DNA from: Owenia fusiformis
Taxonomy: Eukaryota; Annelida; Polychaeta; Sabellida; Oweniidae
Assembly: GCA_903813345.2 (NCBI GenBank)
Contig: CAIIXF020000008.1
Location: forward strand, 36,170,867 to 36,234,866
Length of the DNA stretch: 64,000 nt
Reading direction: 5' to 3'
Both the position numbers and the translations under genes were made by a program. The notes under the pieces are model-generated. The model saw only the letters and a program-made list of their open reading frames with translations. It was not told the origin of the DNA and made no database searches. Shown piece by piece: positions 2,317 through 50,300 of this stretch (positions are counted from its first letter, which is position 1; each line of letters starts with the position of its first letter).

Positions 2317-5300
2317 CTGAAAAGAATAAAAATAAGAGGAATTGGTGCAAAAACTAGACAAGACATTAACATGCAAAATATCATCACTTGCCATTTGATG
2401 CAGACCCTGAACGCCGACCACCAAACACAGATTGTGAAGCATCTTCTACAGAAAAGTTGGAGACTACAATAATATGTCATGACTTTTGGTGGTGACATAA
2501 AAGTTGAAGTCAACCCTCAAACAACAAATATTTGCAAATTGAACTGGGAAAATATTCTTGCAAAGCATTTTACAATAAAATTCTTTCATGCCTCTTTTAC
2601 ATTTGTACATGATTTTGAGGAGATTCAGAACTTAGCTATTGTTAGGTTGACTATTGCAAGTCACTATGAATCCGCTAAATTAAAACCTCACCAAAAAAGT
2701 CTTGAATGACTTGCAAGAAAATATCTTAGATGACCAAATCTCAAGTGCATTCTGACCTGATTAAAATACATTAAAACAAGGCACTAACATGACGGTCAAT
2801 TTCTAGCAAGTTGAAAAAAGACCTTTTGACCTTTTTTTGACCTTGTGGAGGTCATTGAAGGTCAAATATCAAGTCAGATTTGAACTTCTGATAACTTGTA
2901 GATGATTTTGAAAAAAATTGGTTAATTTGAAGCAAGTTGAAAAAAGACCCTTTTGACCTTTTTGGACCTTGAAAACATAATAACAATTCAGATACGTTTA
3001 ATTGCTCTCAGTGGTGGCAATGTCATATTTGAAAACATACTTTATGGGGATTCTCAATAAAAATATGGTTTATGCAAGATTCTAATATGATACATGACGT
3101 CACAAAAGCTAGAAAAATTGATTTACTTGTCTATATTGGAGTATGTATGACCACTAAAATTTATAAATGCAAATAGTTGATTTTCTTGTGTGTCAAATTA
3201 GAATCGTAACAAAGACCTCGATTTTATGATTTATGTCAAATACATGACCTCAAATTTTATTCTGCCCATTGCCAAAGACCTCAATCGATACAGGATTTCG
3301 GTCTTTTAACTTTGAACAGAATAAAAATTTCAGTCATATATTACGCCATTTATCATAAAATCTCAGTCTTTATTCCTTAAATAATTCAATAACATCATCC
3401 TGGTTTGCTTTTATTCCTGTTTTATGGGGCTTCATGTTTTTTTTAAATGTTGCTCTGGGTAAATTCTTTCATCTCACCATTTTTCTAGTTTCTTTTTGAT
3501 AAGATTTGTCTGTGTCATCGCACCACCAGCCCTGATTGGTCATATAGTGACGGAGACGGTTGATTGGATTGTCTCTCTCTTCCCACGTCCTTACTTCATC
3601 CGTTGACCTATAGGCGGAGCTGTCGTCTGATGTACTATGGTGACCAACTCTAAGATATAATAAAAAATTTGGATTAATTATAAATCTTGCTATTATTTTG
3701 AAATAGGGCAAAATCTAACAAAAGACTCCCTTTTCATTAAATGTAAGTTAAACTTTACCAAGAATGCTGAAAAAGTATGTTACCAAAGACAATGAATGTG
3801 AATATAATATTAAATATTAACACATTTACATCAGATGTGTACTTTGTGTACATACACCAAAAGGCAAAAATAAGTATTTACAGTTCTATCTAAATTAATT
3901 TTAAAGCGTTTAAAACGTTTGAATCAAAAACATAATCAAATACTAGATTGAACTTTTTCATATTCACAACTTGAGAACCAAATACACTCTTTTTAAAAAT
4001 ATGGAATCTCACATAATTTTTAATTTCAATTATTTACCTTCTAGCATATTAAAAGTTTTAACAAGCATAAAACAGAAGCATGTGTACTAAACTTAAAAAG
4101 CCCTTGGTTACTAAGATTGACAGATACATTGCATATCAGTTAAAGAATTTCTCACAAAAACTCAAACTTGAAAAATAAGAGCACCAAATGTTGTATATAA
4201 GATAGAAATATGCCAAAAACCCTGCAAAATATGAAAAATACTCTGTTGTTCAAGAGTTTAGTTAATACAACATGCCTTTTCATCTTCTTTTCATTATTTT
4301 TAAAATTGCTACCTATATGTCATTGCTTCAATAAGAACTGGTCTATTGTGTCCGACTGCTACTTCCCTGGCTGCCTTAGTAACATTATACACTGCAAAGG
4401 TGTCATTGCCATCAACCCTCACTGATGCCATGCCATAACCGCTGCCTCTAGATGCTACAATAAATCTTACTTTAAACCACATGCTATGCTCTTGTGCAAA
4501 TGTACACCCTCAAAATGCAATCTGATTTTCGACGCCGTTTCAGTGCCGTTTCGGCACCAAATGGACTGACAAGTCCGGTAGCAAATTTTGGTGTCGAAAG
4601 GTTTCGGTGCCAGAACGGTGTCGAAACGGTGCCGGAACAGTACCAGATTTTTTTGATGCCGTAATGGCGTCAAATTATATTGGCTGTGTAATATGACATG
4701 CACATATCCCGCTGGCCCTTGCATAATTTGGTAAGGTAGGGCAAAAGGTGGGGTAGAATAGGGTGGGGTAGAGTAAAGTGGTGGGGTCCATCGGCAGTTA
4801 GATTCAAATAGAGTAGATCAGTACAAGGTCTTACATATGGCCTATTTAATATTGTTCCTAGGAAATATTTAAATCCAATTTCGTAGTGATTTAGGTACAG
4901 CTAAATTAATAATCCAGGTGACAATGAAAGATGGCATCCTGTGTGTATGTTTTAGGTATTATGGGCCTTTACTGAGCCTACATAATATGCAATACATGGA
5001 CAGAGCACTTCATACATCGGGGTCTAAAAGTCAAAACATCACTAATAGAAATCATAGTGAGCATAAAAAGATCATTTAGAAGCATCGAATCAATGGCAAA
5101 ATCTGAATAATTGAAATATTCACACGTGGACATCACATAACGCACTTCCAATTTTATGATCGATGATTTTTTCAATCAAAAAATATTTATATGAATTTAT
5201 CCGATATCTGTTGAACTATGGTATGTATACTTGTGTTAATTGTTAAAATACAAAATAGGTAGGGTAAAGAATATGTAAAAGCTGTTTGATCTTGTCCCAG

Positions 5301-8300: not shown

Positions 8301-11300
8301 GTTACAACACAATAGAAATTTAAAAACACCAAGAAATAAACAATTAAAGGTAGCTTCGCTGTGTTAACACACATGGAAATTACTAGGAGTTCTGTATTTT
8401 GTTGTAATGATTCAGTCAAGATTGATATTTTTATTTCATATATTTTACAAGTTAGACTACGCTATAATTTTGTATTGAAGCAAGCTCAGACTGTGATAAG
8501 AATTATGGTTAGTCAACATTTGTGGCTATGCGTTGATTAGTCTTGTAATCAACCACATCCTATAAGTGCTCCCACTCCATCTAAAACCTTTATGCATCTA
8601 TAGGGAGTGACAAAATTGTAAGCAAAATGTATAATTAACTTACACTCTATTCCTTACTACCTCAAATCGAATATTCACCAAATGGATTATAAGAAGTTAT
8701 GTTTTGTTTAGCTTGCATATCTGATTCTCTCTTATAATCACGCAATCCAATTAATCCATTGAGAAACCCGTGAGAACAATGCTTGGCTCACCATTAGTCA
8801 ACATATTGTTCCATATAAGGTCATATTGACAGGGAAAATACAAGAGGAGCTCACCCTACCTCAAACAAATATTAAACTGTCTCCCTATTGCATATCTTTT
8901 ACATTCCTATCCCTATTGCATAATAAGTCATGAAGCCAAGCACCATGGAATTTTAATTAATAGGAAAGTGTTTTGTAAAATGTTATACCTGCTTTCCTGT
9001 ATTGACCAAACACCATGGAAGTTTAATGAATAGGAAAGTGTTTTGTAATACCTGCTTTCCTGTATTGACCAAACACCATGGAAGTTTAATAAATAGGAAA
9101 GTGTTTTGTAAAATGTTGTACCTGCTTCCATGTATTGACCAAACACCATGGAAGTTTAATGAATAGGAAAGTGTTTTGTAAAATGTTGTACCTGCTTTCC
9201 TGTATTGACCAAACACCATGGGGTTTAATGAATAGGAAAGTGTTTTGTAAAATGTTGTACCTGCTTCTCTGTATTGCCCAAACACCATGGAAGTTTAATG
9301 AATAGGAAAGTGTTTTGTAAAATGTTATACCTGCTTCCCTGTATTGACCCAACACCATGGAAGTTTAAAGAATGGGAATGTGTTTTGTAAAATGTTGTAC
9401 CTGCTTCCATGTAGTGACCAAACACCATGGAAGTTTAATGAATAGGAAAGTATTTTGTAAAATGTTGTACCTGCTTCCCTGTATTGACCAAACACCAGGT
9501 CATCATCATTCAAAGCTGCAGAGGAACCTGTCTGTGCCCCTTCTTCACCAAAGTTAGTCATGTAGAAAGATATTCTCCCCTGACGCTGGGAGTCGTACAT
9601 TATTTTATCCATTATTTTTAATGTGACCATGTTTTTGTACATCTTCTTCACCTTGTCTTCATCCAGCTAAAACAGAGAAACTTAAATTGTTGTAATTATA
9701 ATTCAAATGCTTTTTCTTGTTATTTCCACATTTTCAAGGAGGGTTGTAAAAGTATTATGTATTAATATAATATTGTCCTTTGGACTTTCTCATAATCAAT
9801 TCTATAAATGCACTATTTATAGGGCACCTAATGGTGGAGCCATTTCCCCGAAAATGAGGCAAAAGAAGGAACTGTCTGAACAAATGCTGTAAATTAATAC
9901 AAGCATGGACCCTTATAGTGGAATGGATTGGTTCAGATGAATGACAGTTTTCATCTGTCTGACAAAGTGAAAAATATTAAGAAATTGAATACATCAAACG
10001 TCAATCAATCCACAAGGACACACATTTGATTTATCAGCAATGAAACAATAGTAACTCTACCTTTGGATCTTGGGACGGATCAAGTATCTTTCCCTTCTTA
10101 TCCATAAGTCTGTAAACAGGCATTGGTTTATCATTCTCTGGAAAGTTAAAGTCCATGTCTAGTGTATATTCAGCAGTCCTTATCCCAGGGTATTGTGGGC
10201 TATCATCTAAGTGAGCCAGACTTGGATCTACACCCGTTGGTTGGCCTTGACCAGAGGACTGACCAAACTAAAAGCAAATCATTCAAAATTAGAATTCCCC
10301 TTTTCATGAACAAATGTCTTGCGATCTGAAACAGATGATCAAATCCTCTGCTACATGTAAGGGCTGGTGTGAAAAAAGTCACTCCACTTCAGGGAAGGAT
10401 CCAACCCACAACCTCCTGATAACACCTTGATCCTTCATCAGCCAGTATTTGAAAATGTCCACCATCAACTTCAGGAAGTATTTCAAATTACATGTACATT
10501 ACGAGCATTACCAAGTGAAGTTACATCCAGCATCTTTGTATAAAAAACTGGATGTACATACCTTGCAATCTCACTTTGGTAATGTACATGGAAATAGTTT
10601 CTGAAGTTGATTGCGGACATTTTGAAATTTTTGAAAAATCGAATCATTAATATTTTAAGGCTATAAATATGGTCGGTCTTTAACATGATATGGTCGGTCT
10701 TTTACACGTTTTCTTCGAACCCTGTTTTGAGGCTACCAATGGAAAACAACGACTGGCCGGTGGTCGGTATTTTTCATAAACCCATTTTTGCACAATTGTT
10801 AAGGTAACGCTTAAGTTAATCAAAAGTACAAAAAAATGGCAGGCATATTTTTTTGACTAAGTCACTAGATTTTGTTTTCTGTTTTCCTTATATGTGAATG
10901 CATTTCCTGACCTAAAAGAGACATGTCAAAGAAAGCTTCACATTTAAACACATTTTTTTAAACGATGAATTGAAGGTGCATGGGTCCCTAAAGCTAGCAT
11001 GGAGACAGTGAAGTGAGGACAACTTTTTAAAATTTCAAGGAGTAGGATTGCAATGGAGACACATTTGTAAGACTCCAAAATTTCCACAAATCATCTTACC
11101 TTACCAAGGAACACTGAAGGAGCATTAAAATGTGTATTTCATACATTGTTAGAGTATAATAAAGCTCAAACCAAAGTAAATTCTAAATATTTCATGTCAA
11201 CCATTTTGTTTGCTTGGACTATTTTCTAGTCCAAAATAATCCTCACTCATGTATCCATTGTTTACATTTGAAAAACATCAATTATGTATCTATCATGATT

Positions 11301-12141
11301 ATTATACTGTTATATATAAAGTATACTAGTGATAATCCATGCCACTTGGTGAAGTCACAAAAACTTGTAAGAGGATTACAGGAAGTCTAGAAGTAGTTCC
11401 GGCAAGAAAAATGGTGGACATGAAATATTTATCAGAAACTATGGTTTGAGCTTTATCATACTCTTAACAATGCAAGAAGAGCACATTTTCATGCTCCCTC
11501 GATGTTCCTTGGTAAGGTAAGATGATTTGTGGAAATTTTGGATTCTTGCAAATGTTTGACTGTTGCAAGGCTACTCCTTCAAACTTTCAAAAATTAGCCT
11601 CATTTCACGGTCTTAATGTTAGCTTTGGGGACCCATGCACCTCCAATTCATAGTTATAAAAAATGCGTTTAAAAGTGAAGTTTTCTTGACTTGTCTCTTT
11701 AGTCAGGAAATGCATTCACATATAAGGAAAACAGAACACGAAATTGTGTGACTTTGTCAAAAATATATGGCTGCCATTTTTTTGTACATTTCATTAAGTT
11801 AACGGTTACCTTAACCAAACTAACATAAAAATATTAGACTAACAACAACTAAAATTCTGAAGTAATGAAGGAGGAATGATGGTTGCATATCTATAGACTT
11901 TGGGAAATCTCCTCATCTGATTGCCAAATGAGATTGAGATGTGATTTATCATCTGTAAAAATTTGAAGTGAGTATTTAGCTTTTTCGTGCTGACTTTGCA
12001 CCATTATATTCTGCTTGAGGTTAATACCATACTTACATTGGACGATGTGCATATTGGTGCAATTGCAACCAATTCCTGACTAGATATTTTCGAAGAAATA
12101 CTAAAGAAATTCCAAATACACTTTCTAAAGATGACCGCCAT
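2140..12141 (-). CDS. BCKDHA: Branched-chain 2-oxoacid dehydrogenase E1 alpha subunit, nine exons
   Basis: Coding exons on the minus strand: 12141-12037, 10267-10061, 9666-9471, 8094-7933, 7474-7330, 6269-6208, 4454-4313, 3649-3478 and 2316-2140. All introns are GT-AG, phases agree throughout, and the 1368-nt CDS gives 455 residues (human precursor 445). The product is the thiamine-diphosphate-dependent decarboxylase alpha chain of the mitochondrial matrix complex that oxidises the 2-oxoacids of leucine, isoleucine and valine; it works as an alpha2-beta2 tetramer with BCKDHB. Visible hallmarks: [16 protein letters not shown] and [10 protein letters not shown] (exon 3), cofactor motif GDG at about 245-247 with NN at about 274-275, and phosphorylation loop [14 protein letters not shown] with Ser345 and Ser355 at the positions used by BCKD kinase in mammals. 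Odd features: a minisatellite copying the exon 3 donor and a partial exon 4 duplication. Strong amino-acid match to the family; only exon 1 rests on context. Confidence 0.97.
2330..2510 (-). repeat. GTGGTGACAT-family copy in BCKDHA intron 8
   Basis: On the minus strand this shows phrases shared with copies at 24-112, 49443-49585 and 56412-56545: AGTCTCCAACTTTTCTGTAG, TTTGGTGGTCGGCGTTCAGG and the GTCATGACATATTATTG end. It is degraded and lacks core repeats. Confidence 0.5.
2779..2985 (-). repeat. Core units of the GTGGTGACAT family, reverse orientation
   Basis: Two copies, about 127 bp apart, of a unit containing AGCAAGTTGAAAAAAGACC and TTTTGACC/GGTCATTGAAGGTCAAA. Their reverse complement matches the core repeats at 21130-21400 and 33950-34165. 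Confidence 0.6.
3478..3649 (-). CDS. BCKDHA: BCKDHA exon 8, phosphorylation loop
   Basis: Encodes [40 protein letters not shown] and [17 protein letters not shown]. The [14 protein letters not shown] loop carries the two serines phosphorylated by BCKD kinase in mammals, so kinase control is likely conserved. Two AG dinucleotides occur at the acceptor; only the upstream one preserves frame. Donor ATG|GTGAGA. Confidence 0.97.
4313..4454 (-). CDS. BCKDHA: BCKDHA exon 7
   Basis: Encodes [33 protein letters not shown] and [14 protein letters not shown]. This aligns with the family segment ARGPGYGI...RVDGND.FAVYNATK..R. The final arginine codon is split AG|A with exon 8. Donor GTAGCA is weak but the only one that keeps phase. 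Confidence 0.95.
4530..4665. repeat. CpG-rich short repeat cluster
   Basis: A local island of repeated CGGTGCCGAAAC-like words in both orientations (GCCGTTTCGGCACC, GGTTTCGGTGCC, ACGGTGTCGAAACGGTGCC). It is unlike the surrounding AT-rich intron and capable of several overlapping hairpins. Origin unknown. A G-rich imperfect repeat (GGTGGGGTAGA words) follows at 4731-4792. Confidence 0.5.
5905..6075 (+). repeat. GTGGGTGCAAATTTTCAGGTGGG family copy
   Basis: Shares AGTGTTCTC, ATTCTCATTTTCACAATTCA, AAGTGGGTNCAA and TTTTCAGGTGGGTGCAA with copies at 29910-30090 (+), 37505-37660 (-) and 39955-40105 (-). A related degraded block lies at 34190-34330. An interspersed repeat of unknown class in intron 6 of BCKDHA. 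Confidence 0.55.
6208..6269 (-). CDS. BCKDHA: BCKDHA exon 6
   Basis: A 62-nt exon too short to stand out as an ORF. It encodes [21 protein letters not shown]. The NN completes the GDG...NN cofactor motif begun in exon 5. Acceptor TTTCAG and donor GTATGT are both consensus. Confidence 0.96.
7330..7474 (-). CDS. BCKDHA: BCKDHA exon 5, cofactor-binding motif
   Basis: Encodes [34 protein letters not shown] and [22 protein letters not shown] is the start of the thiamine-diphosphate/Mg binding motif. Ends with TG of the cysteine codon completed by exon 6. A short inverted-repeat element ends about 26 nt upstream of the acceptor. Confidence 0.97.
7503..7665. repeat. TACAGTAAAACCTG-family element beside BCKDHA exon 5
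   Basis: Begins TATACAGTTAAACCTGTATC and contains AAAAGTGTTCAGATTAACAG and TGTTCTCATTGAG as in the copy at 34670-34866. Its terminus is about 26 nt upstream of the exon 5 acceptor, so most of the 3' end of intron 4 derives from this element. Confidence 0.6.
7933..8094 (-). CDS. BCKDHA: BCKDHA exon 4
   Basis: Encodes [37 protein letters not shown] and [16 protein letters not shown], matching the conserved block around GKGRQMPVHYG and SSPLATQ in mammals. Entry phase completes GGT with the last base of exon 3; exit phase leaves one G completed by exon 5. The 5' part of this exon plus its acceptor is tandemly duplicated at 8107-8237. Confidence 0.96.
8107..8385 (-). pseudogene. Tandem partial copies of BCKDHA exon 4 with acceptor
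   Basis: At 8110-8237 there is a near-identical copy of the first part of exon 4 and its acceptor (TTTTCTAGGTGTGTTAACATGG on the minus strand). It encodes [20 protein letters not shown] through MPVHYGS and then breaks at GGATCC with no donor. Shorter fragments holding only the acceptor and first 20 or so exon bases follow at 8243-8282 and, more diverged, at 8346-8385. These lie in intron 3 and cannot act as complete exons, but they supply extra 3' splice sites. Confidence 0.85.
8585..8672 (+). repeat. Dispersed repeat shared with the window's right end
   Basis: The phrases ATCTATAGGGAGTGACAAAAT, AAGCAAAATGTATAA and TCTATTCCTTACTA recur in the same order at 63935-64000. Class unknown; the second copy runs off the window. 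Confidence 0.5.
8935..9497 (-). repeat. 70-bp minisatellite made from BCKDHA exon 3 end and donor
   Basis: Eight units of about 70 bp. The unit closest to exon 3 is the real exon end, and seven further copies follow in intron 3. On the minus strand each copy reads TGGTGTTTGGTCAATACAGG, GAAGCAG, then GTACAAC or GTATAAC and a roughly 40-bp intron segment. Donor GT dinucleotides fall at 9470-9469 (real) and about 9400, 9330, 9260, 9191, 9121, 9051 and 8988 (copies). Minus-strand ORFs across here merely read the repeat. Confidence 0.93.
9471..9666 (-). CDS. BCKDHA: BCKDHA exon 3
   Basis: Sixty-five codons plus one base. It begins [20 protein letters not shown] and contains [18 protein letters not shown] and [13 protein letters not shown], all highly conserved in the family. 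The glycine codon is split with exon 4. The last 27 bases and the donor GTACAAC are repeated seven more times immediately downstream (8935-9470). Confidence 0.97.
10061..10267 (-). CDS. BCKDHA: BCKDHA exon 2
   Basis: Sixty-nine codons, phase 0 at both ends. The first half ([16 protein letters not shown]...) is a variable linker. The second half includes [20 protein letters not shown] and DPSQDPK, aligning with the conserved segment of the E1 alpha family that reads PIYRVMD...INPSEDP in mammals. Confidence 0.93.
10803..11810. mobile_element. 1-kb foldback element with TTAA target duplication
   Basis: Flanked by TTAA at 10799-10802 and 11811-11814. Left end GGTAACGCTTAAGTTAA and right end TTAACGGTTACC are inverted. 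The two arms, each roughly 420 bp (10803 to about 11230 and about 11395 to 11810), are inverted copies of each other. For example, TTACCTTACCAAGGAAC at about 11097 mirrors GTTCCTTGGTAAGGTAA at about 11504. No ORF. TTAA duplication points to a piggyBac- or Kolobok-related non-autonomous DNA element. It lies in BCKDHA intron 1. Confidence 0.85.
12037..12141 (-). CDS. BCKDHA: BCKDHA exon 1, predicted mitochondrial transit peptide
   Basis: Thirty-five codons starting [18 protein letters not shown]. There is no acidic residue before Glu23, and the segment has scattered Arg/Lys and many Ser and hydrophobic residues, as expected for a cleaved matrix-targeting sequence. It ends in phase 0 at a consensus donor (AAT|GTAAGT), which matches the phase-0 acceptor of exon 2. 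The ATG sits in AAAATGGC context. Transit peptides are poorly conserved, so the call rests on position, phase and composition. Confidence 0.75.
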
Positions 12142-15355: not shown

Positions 15356-16721
15356 TACACATTTGTGTTCTTGTATTGTACTCTTATAGCACATTAACAA
15401 TTAATTAATTAGGCAATTGCAAGAAAAATGTCACTATTAATCATCTGATTATCTGGTCCAGCGAGTCATGGGTGTGAATGGAGTGGGAGAGGAGTTTCTC
15501 CCTGTGTGGAGTTACACAAATTGGGGTCAAAGCGTTTCATGTTGAAATTCAACATTTTTGCAATAATTCCAAAGTCTAAAACGGCAATATAAGTCCGACC
15601 ACAATACTGGGCATCATTTAAATTGAATACGGTAGAATCTTGTATTTACAGCTGATCAAATGAAACCGAAAGTAGCTTTGTTTTCATACCTAATTTATCA
15701 TCATTACCCCCCTTAATGTGCCATCGACTGGATTTTCATGTGCCCATTATCTATCTTCATAGGATCAGCTTCAGATCTAGTGAATCGAAGATCTTAACTT
15801 GAGGGAGTTAATTGAAAATACTTGGTGAAAACTTACGATAGATCGGTCACTGTGAGCACCATTGATAAACCTACTGCGCATTACATCTGCGCATGCTGAT
15901 GAAGGGGACGGCTCAAGGAAACTTGCTAACTTAGCGAAGGAATTTTGCGAACTTGCGAAGGAAACTAAAGGTTCGTAAATCTAGCGTGTGAACATTCAAG
16001 GGAAGATTTTATGCGGTAATTTAGATAAATATACGATCACTAAAATCCTTAGAAGGGAGTATGAAATTAATAAATTATTGTTCAATGTTATGTTCGTTTT
16101 ATTGCATTTTTGATACGCCCCTAGCAACGTGCTTCACGAGATAAACAAATCGAGGGATCGATCAATGTTTTCAAGTTTATCATTGAATCTGAATCACAGG
16201 GCTTTAAAAATTATAAAAAAATACCGAAATGAGAAAATGATCGGTAGGAAGGAGGCTCGATTGCGCTGAACGAAATGTTAGATTTCCGGAATTAGCAAAA
16301 TTATAAATTTGATCAATCACGTATAGGGATCAATTTAACCAAGTAGTCTACCAAGCGGGTATTTTGCATGTGAAACAAACGTGCGTCAGAAAGACTCGGT
16401 AGACAATGAATATTTGCGTCAGAGTTGCAAAAATGTGAGTAAAAAACGTAAAAAATTGCGTTAACGCCACCTCTGGCGTTATTTCGTGATAACTACAACG
16501 CCTTCCCGAAAGTCAACATTGATGAAAAATGAAAAAGTCGGAAAAGCATAATTTCTATCAAATGCTATGTTTATGCATCATCATCGACGCAACAAAGGTG
16601 ATATGATTTCATTAAGATTCGGGTTCTAACCTTTAGAAGGTAAGTCAGACTCCCAAACGTCAGCTAACTCTTATATTTAGCATGTTAGCGACGAAGTCAG
16701 GCCTTGCAAAAAGTAGTAGTT

Positions 16722-20985: not shown

Positions 20986-21440
20986 GTTATGGTCTCTGTT
21001 TTTTTGTGATGGCGATCGGCGCTTGGCGATCGGTGGGTGGCGGTGATCAGGGGGTGGCGATTGGCGTCTAACAAATTCTTAAAATTTCCAATAACTTAAA
21101 TAAATACTGTTCAGACTGACTTCAGAATTTAAGATTTGACCTTCATTGACCTTTTCAAGGTAAAAAAGGTATTTTTTCAACTTGCTTCAAATAACCAATT
21201 TTTTTTCAAAATGGTCTAGTTCTCAAAAGTTCAAATCTGATTATAGATTTGACCTTCAGTGATATTCTCAAGGTAAAAAAAAGTTTGACCTTCAATGACC
21301 TCAGGGTCAAAAATGTATTTTTTCAACTTGCTTCAAATTGATCAATTTTTTTAAAAATCATCTACAAGTTCTCAGAAATTCAAATCTGACTTAAGATTGA
21401 ACTCATAATATTGTGAGCAACTAGGTGGTGACATTTTGTC
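20985..21440 (-). mobile_element. GTGGTGACAT-family element with two core units
   Basis: Plus-strand order: ATATTGTTATGGTCTCTG end, a GGCGATCGGCG-type short repeat tract (21009-21062), then two core units about 147 bp apart (CAACTTGCTTCAAAT at 21177 and 21322), and GGTGGTGACATTTTG at 21424-21438. The same layout, reversed, as the 13708-15355 element but with different sequence, so it is probably a sister family. Confidence 0.65.
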
Positions 21441-22634: not shown

Positions 22635-23431
22635 TGGATTAGCCAAGATTTACTTGAGTATATAATAAACCCGTCTTCTTAGAAGACCAGTTAAACTGGT
22701 TAGAAATTATTGAATTCAAAGTTTTCTACAATTGTTTTGATAAATTTAGATAAAATAAAAATTGTGTTAATAGTGAGGGGTGGTGTTTTCATTAGAGAGT
22801 ATTATATTTGATGCAAGGGTTTTACCTTTATATGGTAGGTACTAAGGTGTACTTTAATTAAGTCTTGAAGCAAGGAAAGTGATGTGATATTATGAAATAT
22901 AATATGTAATGTTGGGTAATATAACATTTAGCATCCTTAGAGAAAAACCCTGGAAAATCATGTGAAGCATTTTTAGCATCAATCCAGGCTAAAATTATCA
23001 TAAATATGAACAGCATCTTGATACCTCAATTAATCAGGCTAAAAGACACTGCTACACACAAGAGCGTTTAATGAAATTCTGCATGTTGTAAGGTTTAGCC
23101 CATTCTGCTTTAGCAAGAGTCCCTCCTTTATCATCTTATGTCTCATCACTAGCCAGGGATATCACAATAAGTTTAACCCATTCATCCTATTGTGAATCGC
23201 TTTTGGCATAAGCTTACGGAAAATTAATTGTAAGCTTGTGATATATAGACAAGCTTCCTATATAAGCTTACTATGAATTTGGGATAACTTGCTGAGGATG
23301 TCATTGCATGTGTAGATTGACATGTCTCAAGGCATATTCGATTATAGGCTTTATCTATTGAGTCCATCAAAGCCAGTAGATTATCATATAATTGCATAAA
23401 AAGATAACTGATATTACTTTTTACTGGGCAA

Positions 23432-26060: not shown

Positions 26061-26066
26061 TCTTAA

Positions 26067-26667
26067 AGGAATATTCCTTGCCAGACCCTTTCTCTCTTGA
26101 TATGGTAGCTATAATCATATATATAGTTTCCATATTTAGCAAAACATGGGAAAATGTTTTAATATGGTCAATATTGATCATTTAAAAATCTAGTGCTTAC
26201 TTCTAGTGAGCTGCCATCTTTTAAGATTTCTTGCAGGAAGTGATGTCATCAACTCTCAACTTCTATAACCTTGCCAATAACAGTATAGGAAAGTAGCACA
26301 AAATCACTTCTAGACAAGTGATCATTACTTTCTGTGCAAAAATATTTTCAGGGCTTGTCAACTTAGAATAAAAGAAGAGATTTTCAGAAGGATAAATAAG
26401 ATACAAGGTTGAAAAAGAATATTTAGCTGGTTTTGTAATTCTTAATAGCTCCTCACCTAATGCTATATGCAAAGTTGAGAGTCAATGACATCACTTCCTG
26501 TGTGGAATTTTAAAAGATGGCAGCTTACTGGAATTGAGCATCACATTTCTATGTGATCAAATTTGACCATATCAAAACATTTTTGCGTGTTTTGCTAAAC
26601 ATGGCAAGCATATATATGGTTATAGCTACCATATGAGGAGAGAGATGGTTTGGCAAGGAATATTCCT
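26067..26667. mobile_element. 601-bp foldback element with TTAA target duplication
   Basis: TTAA at 26063-26066 and 26668-26671. Ends AGGAATATTCCTTGCCA and TGGCAAGGAATATTCCT are inverted. Arms of about 200 bp stay alignable inward (GCTGCCATCTTTTAA at 26210 with TTAAAAGATGGCAGC at 26511; CAGGAAGTGATGTCAT with ATGACATCACTTCCTG). The end sequence AGG and TTAA site favour Kolobok or piggyBac-like origin. No transposase. Confidence 0.9.
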
Positions 26668-27101
26668 TTAAGTCACACTGGGCCAGATTGTAAAAAAAAG
26701 AAAATTAGATCATAAAAAAGTGTTCCGCATTGGATTCTAGGCTAATTACGGCTCAATGCCACAACACATTCAAAAGAGAGGCTTACTCGTGTATATTCGC
26801 GCCTCAAATTTGAAGATCTGATTCTCCAATTATACTTCATTCTGGCTCGACGTGAAGTGCATTTTTATTGTACCACTTGAGCTACCTTAAATACATTTTT
26901 TTAATTCGGGAGCTACCTTAAACACTACATCATGGAAAGAGAATTCATATTTTCCTTATTATTTATATTTGTACATACACTCCCCTCCATACGTTAATGG
27001 CAACTGAAAGTCCCCTTTTAGATAAAGTATATGTTTTATGATTTTAAAATCATTTCTGTTTGAAACTTCCGATCATATAATTTAAAGGAACCAAATTATT
27101 A

Positions 27102-32960: not shown

Positions 32961-33136
32961 CGAATCCGCGATTTTAAGAATTTTATCTGATTCTCAGAAT
33001 AGAATTGAGGCTTGATTTACAAATGTATCTGTGAAATCTACCCTGATTGTATATCAGGCTCTTAATTATAGGAGAAATAAATATAGATTGTAAGTTACTG
33101 TTTTGAAGCTGATAGAATTTTATTAACCCCAAAAGT

Positions 33137-33675
33137 CACTGCTACCCACCTAATTACACAGACGTATCGTCGGTGTATCATGGCGGAACTTCCTCCGGGA
33201 CTAGGTTTCGGTAAGATTCTTTTATTTCCCATATACACCTCCTTATAATTCACGTTGTAGATAATAATTTGGCTCGAAGTTAAGGAAGATAGTCTAGTTT
33301 GAGAATGTGTCGATGGTTTTAGGTTTTATATGTTAACAAAGACACAATTCACGTATTTAGTCCCTCGCTTTTCTTACACTGACGAACGACCAATATCTGT
33401 GTAATATTGGCAATATTAATGCCGATCGTCAGTGTAAGAAAAGCGAGGGACTAAATACGTGAATTGTGTCTTTGTTAACATATAAAACCTAAAACCATCG
33501 ACACATTCTCAAACTAGACTATCTTCCTTAACTTCGAGCCAAATTATTATCCACAACGTGACTTATAAGTAGGTGTAAATCGGGAAATAAAAAAATCTTA
33601 CCGAAACCTAGTCCCGGAGGAAGTTCCGCCATGATACACCGACGATACGTCTGTGTAATTAGGTGGGTAGCAGTG
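33137..33675. mobile_element. 539-bp palindromic element with 249-bp arms and 5-bp target duplication
   Basis: Arms 33137-33385 and 33426-33675 are near-identical inverted copies around a 40-bp loop. Ends CACTGCTACCCACCTAATTA and its inverse are flanked by AAAGT at 33132-33136 and 33676-33680. Each arm carries TATCATGGCGGAACTTCCTC then CGGGACTAGGTTTCG|GTAAGA: an ATG in good context, ten codons (MAELPPGLGF) and a splice donor, once on each strand (33180-33210 and 33632-33602). No transposase. Class unknown; a 5-bp duplication with CAC-starting ends occurs in Transib, but this is only suggestive. Confidence 0.85.
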
Positions 33676-33949
33676 AAAGTAGCTGTTATGACTTTTAATG
33701 TAAGAAAAATTATGAAATCGATGCTTCTGGTTATACTTGTAAAAGTGTGAAATTTAGTGCTATTTTGATTGACTCAGATTGATTCTGAACTTCTATATTC
33801 TCAGTATCTGATTGGTTAAAGGGTTACGATAAGATTACCGTATAAAAATAATATGGTGGCTCCAGGTGAGTGAATTATCAGTCTTGATAGTCTATTTCCC
33901 ATTTTTTGATGATTTGGCCTAGAAAGGCCCTCTGGATTTACCAGTGAAA

Positions 33950-34165
33950 AGTATCTCAAAAGTTCAAATGTGACTATAGATTTGACCTTCAATGATATTC
34001 TCAAGGTCAAAAAAGACTTGACCTTCAATGACCTACTCAAAGTCAAAAGAGTATTTTTCAACTTGCTTCAAATCGACCAATTTTTTTTCAAAATCATCAA
34101 CAAGTTTTCAGAAATTCAAATCTGACTAAGATTGAACTCATAATATTGGTAACATTTTGTCACGT
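33950..34165 (-). repeat. Partial GTGGTGACAT-family element (core only)
   Basis: Matches the core at 21225-21440: TTCAAATGTGACTATAGATT, TTGACCTTCAATGA, CAACTTGCTTCAAATCGACC, TTCAGAAATTCAAATCTGAC, TGAACTCATAATATT. It ends in a degraded GGTAACATTTTGTCAC. Confidence 0.65.
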
Positions 34166-47300: not shown

Positions 47301-50300
47301 TACACTAATCAAGTTATCAATATTTATTATGTTAAAAGTTATCAGTTGATGCCACGGTCACATGTGATTAGTATTTTGCGACATGCGCTGATGTAGAAGA
47401 TTGGAGCAAATGTGACCATAGCATTTCTTATATCGGAACATACCCTTTTCAATCATTTGATTTCGATTATTTTTAAAGAGAGCATTATCTAGACTCTTTC
47501 AGTTTGAGATAATCTACTAGTTAACCCTTAACCAATCAGAATAGGTCAATCAAAACCCAGTTATCCAATCCGATTTGCAGTTACAGTAATTTATGTCTTC
47601 ATACTAAGCTGACCATTTATTTAATATAAAAACACCATAAAATGCCATTGCTATTCAAATTCATATATTTTTTTTTTAAAGTATAGTAGGATATTATGTT
47701 GTAGGCCTAAGGGTTATCAAAACCTCTGTATTATCATAAAATAAATGAGCCTTTGGCAAATCTGTCATACATTACAATACAAATATTTATTTTACATTTT
47801 TTTATGGATTGACAATACATGTCATACATCATAATAAGGTCAATATAAGTAAATTATCTGTTAGTGCAACTTTGTTCTCAAGATAAAATAGATTTATCCC
47901 GTACCAGGACTATAGTCCTGAGAACGTCTTATTCTTTTGCCTGTACGATTACAACATGGGAAAATTTTCTACGCTTCTTACACTTAAGATACCCATTTCA
48001 ATAGATTCCTTGGTATTTTAACATTCTTTTCGTGTTGTTGAATCCAGGATTGTCTGGGTTTATCGGCAGAACAAAGACATTTTCGTTTTTGATCGCAATA
48101 TTTGTGTGTAATTTAACTTATTTCAACCGTCAAATTCTTCCATTTATTGGTTATCTGGGCCACTTCCGGGTCAGTCAAACGGGGAATCCCCTTTTAATCC
48201 AACCGCCATCTTGGAAAGTGATGGAATATCTCTCGATGGAAAAGAAAAATCTTCCCATTCTGCTGATACACCCAAATAATTGTGGATTCAACTACACGAA
48301 AAGAATGCTAAAATACCCGGGAATCTATTGAAGTAGGTATCTTAAGTACAGGGTGACCGGAAAAAAAGGAGACCATTGAAATAGGCAATATCTCCTAAAA
48401 TAGACTAGTGACATCAATGAAATTTTGCATACATCAGGACAGTTCTATGGAAATTTGTTCCTGAAAGTGTCAATACAAGCAGTCAACTGGTTCAGGAGCT
48501 ATGATCATTTACATAACATGCTCCAAATAGGCGCAATTGAGACCAACGCAGAGCTGGATACATTTGGCAAATACCCTTACATATTCCGACCTTGTTATGG
48601 CATTACATTTAGCATTTATTGCCACCTTTAGGTCAGCAATTGTCTCAGGATTGTTTTGGTACACATTGTCTTTCAAATTGCCCCACAAAAGGAAATCAGG
48701 TGGATTCAAATTTGAGGTGTATGGAGACGAAGCTTATCTGACCTATGGCTTCTGACTCAGTGGTCCCACTCAGTTACAGTATCATCCTAAGGAGGTTTTG
48801 GGCAGCCCTTGGTTTCCATATGGGATTTAATTGTGCCATATAGTGGTTTTAGTAACATGGCACTATGCCCAATACCTAAAGTGACTCTTAAGATTGGGTA
48901 AATCAGCACTTTGGCAACAGGATGATGAACCACATGTCAGATAACCCTTCATTGCCATTACAGCCTAGACTTGAATCCTGCTGATTTCTTTTTGTATGGA
49001 TATTTGAAAGACAATCTATACCAAAACAATCCTCAGACTATTGTTGACCTAAAGAAGGCAATCACTGCTATATGTAATGCCATAATAATGCCATAGAGGG
49101 CAGAACATGTAAGGGTAGTTTGCCATATGAATCCAACTCTGCGTTGGTCTCAAATGTGCCTATTTGGAGCATGTTATGTAAATGATCATAGCTCCTGAAC
49201 CAGTTGAATGCTTGTATTGAAACCTTCAGTAACAAATTTCCATATAACTGTTCCAGTGTATGCAAAATTTCATTGATGGCACTTGTCTAGTTTAGGAGAA
49301 ATTGATTACTTCAATGGTCTCCTTTTTTTCCGGTCACCCTGTATAAGGGGCATAGATAATTCTCCCAAATTGTAATCATACCGGCAAAAGAATGAGCTCG
49401 TTACAGGACTATAGTCCTGGCACAGGATAAAAATAGATAGGTTTCACCAGAAGTGGTGACATATTGTTACAGTCTTTTGTGGATGGTGTCTGGCGGTCAC
49501 TATTCAGTGGTAGGCACTCGGTTGTTGGTATTTTTCAGTTGGCATCTGTAACAAATGGTAGGTGATGACATTTTGCATGTTAATGCCTTGCTTCTTTTAA
49601 CTAAAATTTCAAAATACAATAGAGTTTGTCACGTAGGCCTAAGACAAGTCAAGACAACCGCTTTGCAGCTATAATTATCACTTATTATTACCTTTTGAAA
49701 CAATTGTCACCTGAACTTTTCACGACATATGTATTGTCTTACAAATAGAAGAACCCCTCTTGAATAAAGTGTATTCAACGTTATATAACACTACCCTTTG
49801 CATTCATTGAAGAACTAGACTCTGCACATCGGGTAATATAACACACATGATTTCGTAATAGCATTGTTGATCTATTAGATATTAATCCGACACAAATCGG
49901 AGAATTGAAAGTTTTGATGAATGAGATATCTAATCTTCAATAATAACTGCAAATCGTGTGTGTATATGTAAAAATTGAGCAGAAACAATTCAATAGGCAG
50001 AGTTTTATTTCCAGGCAGAAACTTGAGTTAAATGCCATGTTCTTTGTTGGAGAAGATAAACAATAGGCTGGAAGGCATTTACACCTTATTGGGTGGTATT
50101 GAATACTTGAAGCTTTTGCATAGAGGTCTTCTATCTCTTATACACATCTATTTGGTGGTATTGAATACTTGAAGCTTTTGCATAGAGGTCTTCTATCTCT
50201 TACACACATCTATTTGGTGGTATTGAATACTTGAAGTTTTTGCATAAAGGTCTTCTATATCTACTATACACATCTATTTGGTGGTATTGAATACTTCAAG

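Follow-up and report, generated by a model that had tools for sequence, protein, structure and literature searches.

The window analysed here, the whole stretch of 64,000 bases, is eukaryotic and probably of animal origin, and it contains frames of a probable dehydrogenase gene, several foldback elements, and a 539-bp near-perfect palindrome. Two of 10 tested frames match the Pfam family E1_dh, both on the minus strand (9328–9666, E 6e-15; 3472–3714, E 4e-15). Frames at 2140–2445 and 10034–10267 gave no E1_dh match. From their sequences, we read these four frames as probable exons of a branched-chain 2-oxoacid dehydrogenase E1 alpha gene. A search of the window against Rfam at gathering scores returned 0 matches.

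Of the 28 inverted pairs in the window, the 25 longest were inspected, and three foldbacks other than the 539-bp palindrome stood out. With three such neighbours in the same 64 kb, palindromic elements are common here. Two are flanked by TTAA. The first of these (10803–11810, within 10799–11814) is ~1 kb long, with GGTAAC.. ends and arm pieces that are 81%–87% complementary, and is presumably of piggyBac/Kolobok type, judged by its target site duplication (TSD). The second (26067–26667, within 26063–26671) is ~600 bp long and has AGGAATATTCC ends and arms that are 84% complementary. The third is a compound foldback (47893–49431), in which an element at 48349–49341 with CAGGGTGACCGG ends and TA flanks is nested in a second inverted repeat. 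Its frames resemble the end part of a Tc1/mariner-type transposase; one of them, 48512–48733 on the minus strand, matched no Pfam family.

Architecture and composition of the palindrome

The palindromic element occupies positions 33137–33675, starts with CACTGCTACCCACCT, and ends with AGGTGGGTAGCAGTG. A left arm (TIR) of 249 bp (33137–33385, plus strand, starting CACTGCTACCC) and a right arm (TIR) of 250 bp (33426–33675, minus strand) enclose a unique loop of 40 bp (33386–33425). The 5-bp TSD, AAAGT, is flush with both ends of the palindrome (33132–33136 and 33676–33680), and the flanks beyond it are not mirrored. An earlier note on this DNA had described a 539-bp palindrome with 249-bp arms, a 40-bp loop, and flanking AAAGT. 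All of this was confirmed except the length of the right arm, which is 250 bp. With the flanks joined, no matching empty site was found within the 64-kb window. The right flank includes a piece of another dispersed repeat (33954–34148, 21131–21413, and 2794–2960), whose pieces are 74%–89% identical.

Folding as single-stranded DNA gave −296.4 kcal/mol, compared to −50.75 (sd 5.14) in 100 shuffles (z −47.8), and the palindromy is far beyond chance. An alignment of the two arms spans 250 columns and contains six differences, comprising five substitutions and one 1-base indel. All six fall inside columns 83–124 (42 columns; 33219–33259 and the mirror positions), just inside the potential splice donor described below, and the remaining 208 of 250 columns are identical. 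Clustering of this kind has a P value of 0.0005 under random placement. One possible cause is conversion that evened out the arms elsewhere, and another is that they were already unlike when the element formed.

A 10-bp motif, TACACNGACG, has six exact matches in the 64,000 bases, and all are inside the element. The number expected in the window is 0.08, and none of 100 shuffles reached six. Near either end of the element, two copies form an inverted pair separated by 3 bp, and a further copy flanks the loop on both sides. The left subterminal pair consists of TACACAGACG (33155–33164, plus) and TACACCGACG (33168–33177, minus), and the right subterminal pair of TACACCGACG (33635–33644, plus) and TACACAGACG (33648–33657, minus). 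Copies of TACACTGACG mark the inner ends of the left arm (33375–33384, plus) and the right arm (33427–33436, minus). Since one arm duplicates the other, the number of independent copies is three, and the motif was picked after inspecting the element. Even allowing for both, the array is far beyond chance. It is a feature absent from the earlier note and new here. Symmetric repeats of this sort are typical of transposase-binding sites, and we consider these copies to be putative sites of that kind.

The element also stands out in base composition, with a CpG o/e of 1.31 compared to 0.41 for the window. This value is reached by 40 of 3,120 windows of 539 nt placed outside the element (20-nt step, mutually overlapping, none touching the element), with a maximum of 1.71 at 15940. 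The three other foldbacks have ratios of 0.29, 0.06, and 0.41. Along the arm, the ratio is high throughout (1.15, 1.36, and 1.38 in three parts). The left arm has 12 CpGs, every one of them kept in the right arm, which has one more via the indel. CpG content and its retention between arms fit a young insertion, or one with lower exposure to CpG decay. GC content is 51% in the first 80 nt of the arm, a level reached by 1.2% of 80-nt windows (the element's own included).

A mirrored start-exon signature

Each arm carries one potential start exon, and both face inward. On the plus strand (33180–33210), an ATG at 33180 with A at −3 and G at +4 opens ten codons (MAELPPGLGF) that are followed by one base and a potential donor, GTAAGA, from 33211. 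The same letters occur in mirrored form on the minus strand (33602–33632), with the donor from 33601. The earlier note had pointed to an ATG in good context, MAELPPGLGF, and GTAAGA in each arm, and these are present as letters on both strands. Judged from the letters, a function as an exon is possible. A TATAAAA word at 33481 faces outward and was dismissed as not meaningful, as there are 34 such words in the window on both strands.

We give roughly even weight to the reading that the signature is a product of chance in an ordinary foldback MITE with no coding past, which is compatible with the explanation preferred below. The strict signature was defined as R at −3, G at +4, 5–60 open codons, and GTAAG. 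It was found in 1.9% of 20,000 random 250-nt pieces of the window, on either strand and with pieces overlapping the element included. When the start context is dropped, the rate rises to 0.11 (GTAAG) or 0.19 (GTRAG) per 250 nt per strand. Start codons with the signature number eight with GTRAG and six with GTAAG in the whole window, two of each being the element's mirrored pair. The feature was picked after looking, and the mirrored second exon adds no evidence because the palindrome copies everything. In addition, the open frame runs on past the donor, by 12 codons in the left arm and by 24 in the right, and splicing is therefore unnecessary to explain the signature. Against chance, the strict form is uncommon, and the potential exon segment has a GC content of 58%, compared to ~34%–35% regionally. 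This composition leans toward a non-random origin, but the preceding 43 bp of the element, motif pair included, also have 49% GC. Unlike the palindromy, the exon signature alone is weak and not far beyond chance. The mirrored exon may be a chance product or what is left of the start of the parent transposon's gene.

The earlier note had instead proposed two functional origins, a captured host promoter and first exon carried by an amplified foldback element, or an element selected to donate a 5' exon, and no positive evidence emerged for either. Capture would fit the GC-rich first 80 nt of the arm and an ATG with A at −3 and G at +4 that is followed by a good donor. However, a search for a host gene starting MAELPPGLGF found nothing in PDB sequences up to E 10 and nothing in the papers searched, and the high CpG ratio spans the whole arm. 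Only 43 bp separate the outer end of the element from the ATG, a short stretch in which to carry a promoter and 5' leader. The subterminal motif pair stands just 2 bp away, and this proximity suggests that the ATG is part of the element and not grafted into it. We therefore regard capture as quite unlikely. Donation of a 5' exon by selection faces the same weak signature and the same 43 bp before the ATG. Its fullest form would be a family whose two TIRs share a functional promoter facing inward, a start codon, and a splice donor. Every copy would then offer a start exon on both strands and could begin chimeric host proteins with MAELPPGLGF at any insertion site; this we consider quite unlikely. 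Should copies start spliced chimeric transcripts on either strand, the element would be a symmetric exon-donating transposon. If the exon is real, the parent transposon's own 5' end is preferred over both readings because it is a simpler explanation.

Probable origin as a foldback MITE

The element is very probably a non-autonomous palindromic (foldback) TIR DNA transposon, a 539-bp MITE with a 5-bp TSD that was mobilised in trans by the transposase of a parent. Transposition is indicated because the TIRs (249 and 250 bp) are flush with the AAAGT duplication on both sides. Near-identical arms and a symmetric motif array that occurs nowhere else in the window support the same reading. On these grounds, the proposal in the earlier note of an inserted foldback element is upheld. 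The element is short and lacks a transposase of its own. For the longest frame overlapping it (33528–33773, minus strand, 81 aa), neither Pfam (E ≤ 0.1) nor PDB (E ≤ 10) yielded a match. A recent insertion is the best explanation of its present state.

As a foldback MITE, the element would have moved by cut and paste, with transposase supplied in trans by a parent element not seen here. The arms would correspond to the parent's end or ends, either as long TIRs that remained after internal deletion or as one end duplicated in inverted orientation via faulty gap repair. If the ATG segment is an exon at all, it would mark where the parent's own gene begins, with no capture from the host. Some observations count against the MITE reading. 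A single copy is known, within the 64-kb window, which also has no empty site matching the joined flanks; the CACTG...CAGTG ends fit no superfamily consensus fully; and the clustered arm differences are unlike even decay after insertion. As a MITE, the element would be ordinary genome content. Palindromes are also a known product of inverted chimeras and missed hairpin adapters, but an assembly or sequencing artefact is highly improbable here, as the symmetry ends exactly at the 5-bp direct duplication with unmirrored flanks, the two arms are unlike at six columns, and a 40-bp loop lies between them.

Searches for copies and comparison with known transposons

Comparison of the element with the 64-kb window by blastn identified no second copy, the next best match being 20 nt long (E 0.10). 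A stretch of 18 nt at 23042–23059 (CACTGCTACAC) resembles the element end together with its AAAGT side at chance level (E 1.2). Further copy searches covered collections of viral, prokaryote, phage, and plasmid sequences. Negative results there, as in PDB sequences, carry little weight for animal genomes. In IMG/VR, a 25-mer and a 26-mer of the element had 0 matches each, and the paired subterminal motif had 0 matches. A 14-mer of the element end was found in 104 IMG/VR stretches, although words this short are expected by chance and the count comes without a shuffle control. Comparison of the element with those 104 stretches by blastn produced 218 pieces, all ≤34 nt (best E 0.12). Phages and plasmids gave no blastn match up to E 0.01, and a 20-mer of the element end had 0 matches in prokaryote genomes. 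A 21-mer of the exon was found in three bacterial contigs, in which the likeness stops at 22–27 nt. These were rejected as chance matches, since the likeness ends at or just past the fetching pattern and the E value of 4e-6 applies to three stretches only.

The 5-bp TSD and CACTG...CAGTG ends could reflect a hAT5 or Transib-like transposase. Ends of hAT elements have the form CAGNG, Transib elements have a 5-bp TSD and the end form CACWRTG, and Mutator elements have a 9-bp TSD. The element starts with CACTG, one base off the hAT form, and its first seven bases (CACTGCT) agree with the Transib form at five of seven positions. The TSD of Transib type is 5 bp and GC-biased, whereas AAAGT is 5 bp and not GC-rich, at one site only. 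Assignment to the Mutator family was rejected, given a TSD of 5 bp and not 9 bp. A 5-bp TSD is given for hAT5 in the available text of PMC12730594 (citing Kapitonov and Jurka 2007), and the element has the same TSD length in its one insertion; no transposase was seen in the element for this comparison, and hAT5 has 0 mentions in the main text of PMC6004678. The same excerpt of PMC12730594 describes CA..TG ends and 2–5-bp TSDs for a CMCT group, with which the element shares its CA..TG ends. For ProtoRAG, an excerpt of PMC8289069 gives a 5-bp TSD and the end CACTATG. The element resembles Transib and ProtoRAG in TSD length and in its first triplet, CAC, and CACTGCT agrees with the ProtoRAG end at four of seven positions. 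With agreement at four or five of seven positions, the end is not heptamer-like, and assignment to the Transib family was rejected.

Foldback elements are a known kind of element, and the claim in the earlier note that this architecture belongs to no described family was too strong. Very long TIRs are shared with foldback-like elements such as Galileo, as described in part of PMC4168063. In Caenorhabditis, inverted-repeat MITEs have been co-opted as host promoters (PMC9757741); the available text claims no donated start exon, and the element here is known from its sequence alone. Among the literature matches listed, titles and the starts of abstracts revealed no fitting exon-donating or palindromic element, an absence that is unproven. 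In maize MuDR, the ~215-bp TIRs include a binding site for the transposase along with inward-facing promoters that serve two convergent genes, and transcription starts at ~+165, near the TIR inner end (excerpt of PMC3440606). In contrast, the ATG of the element lies 43 bp from the outer end, and no sequence relation to MuDR is shown. If the exon is real, MuDR as described in that excerpt would be the nearest known parallel, and the mirrored exon would be a by-product of identical ends.
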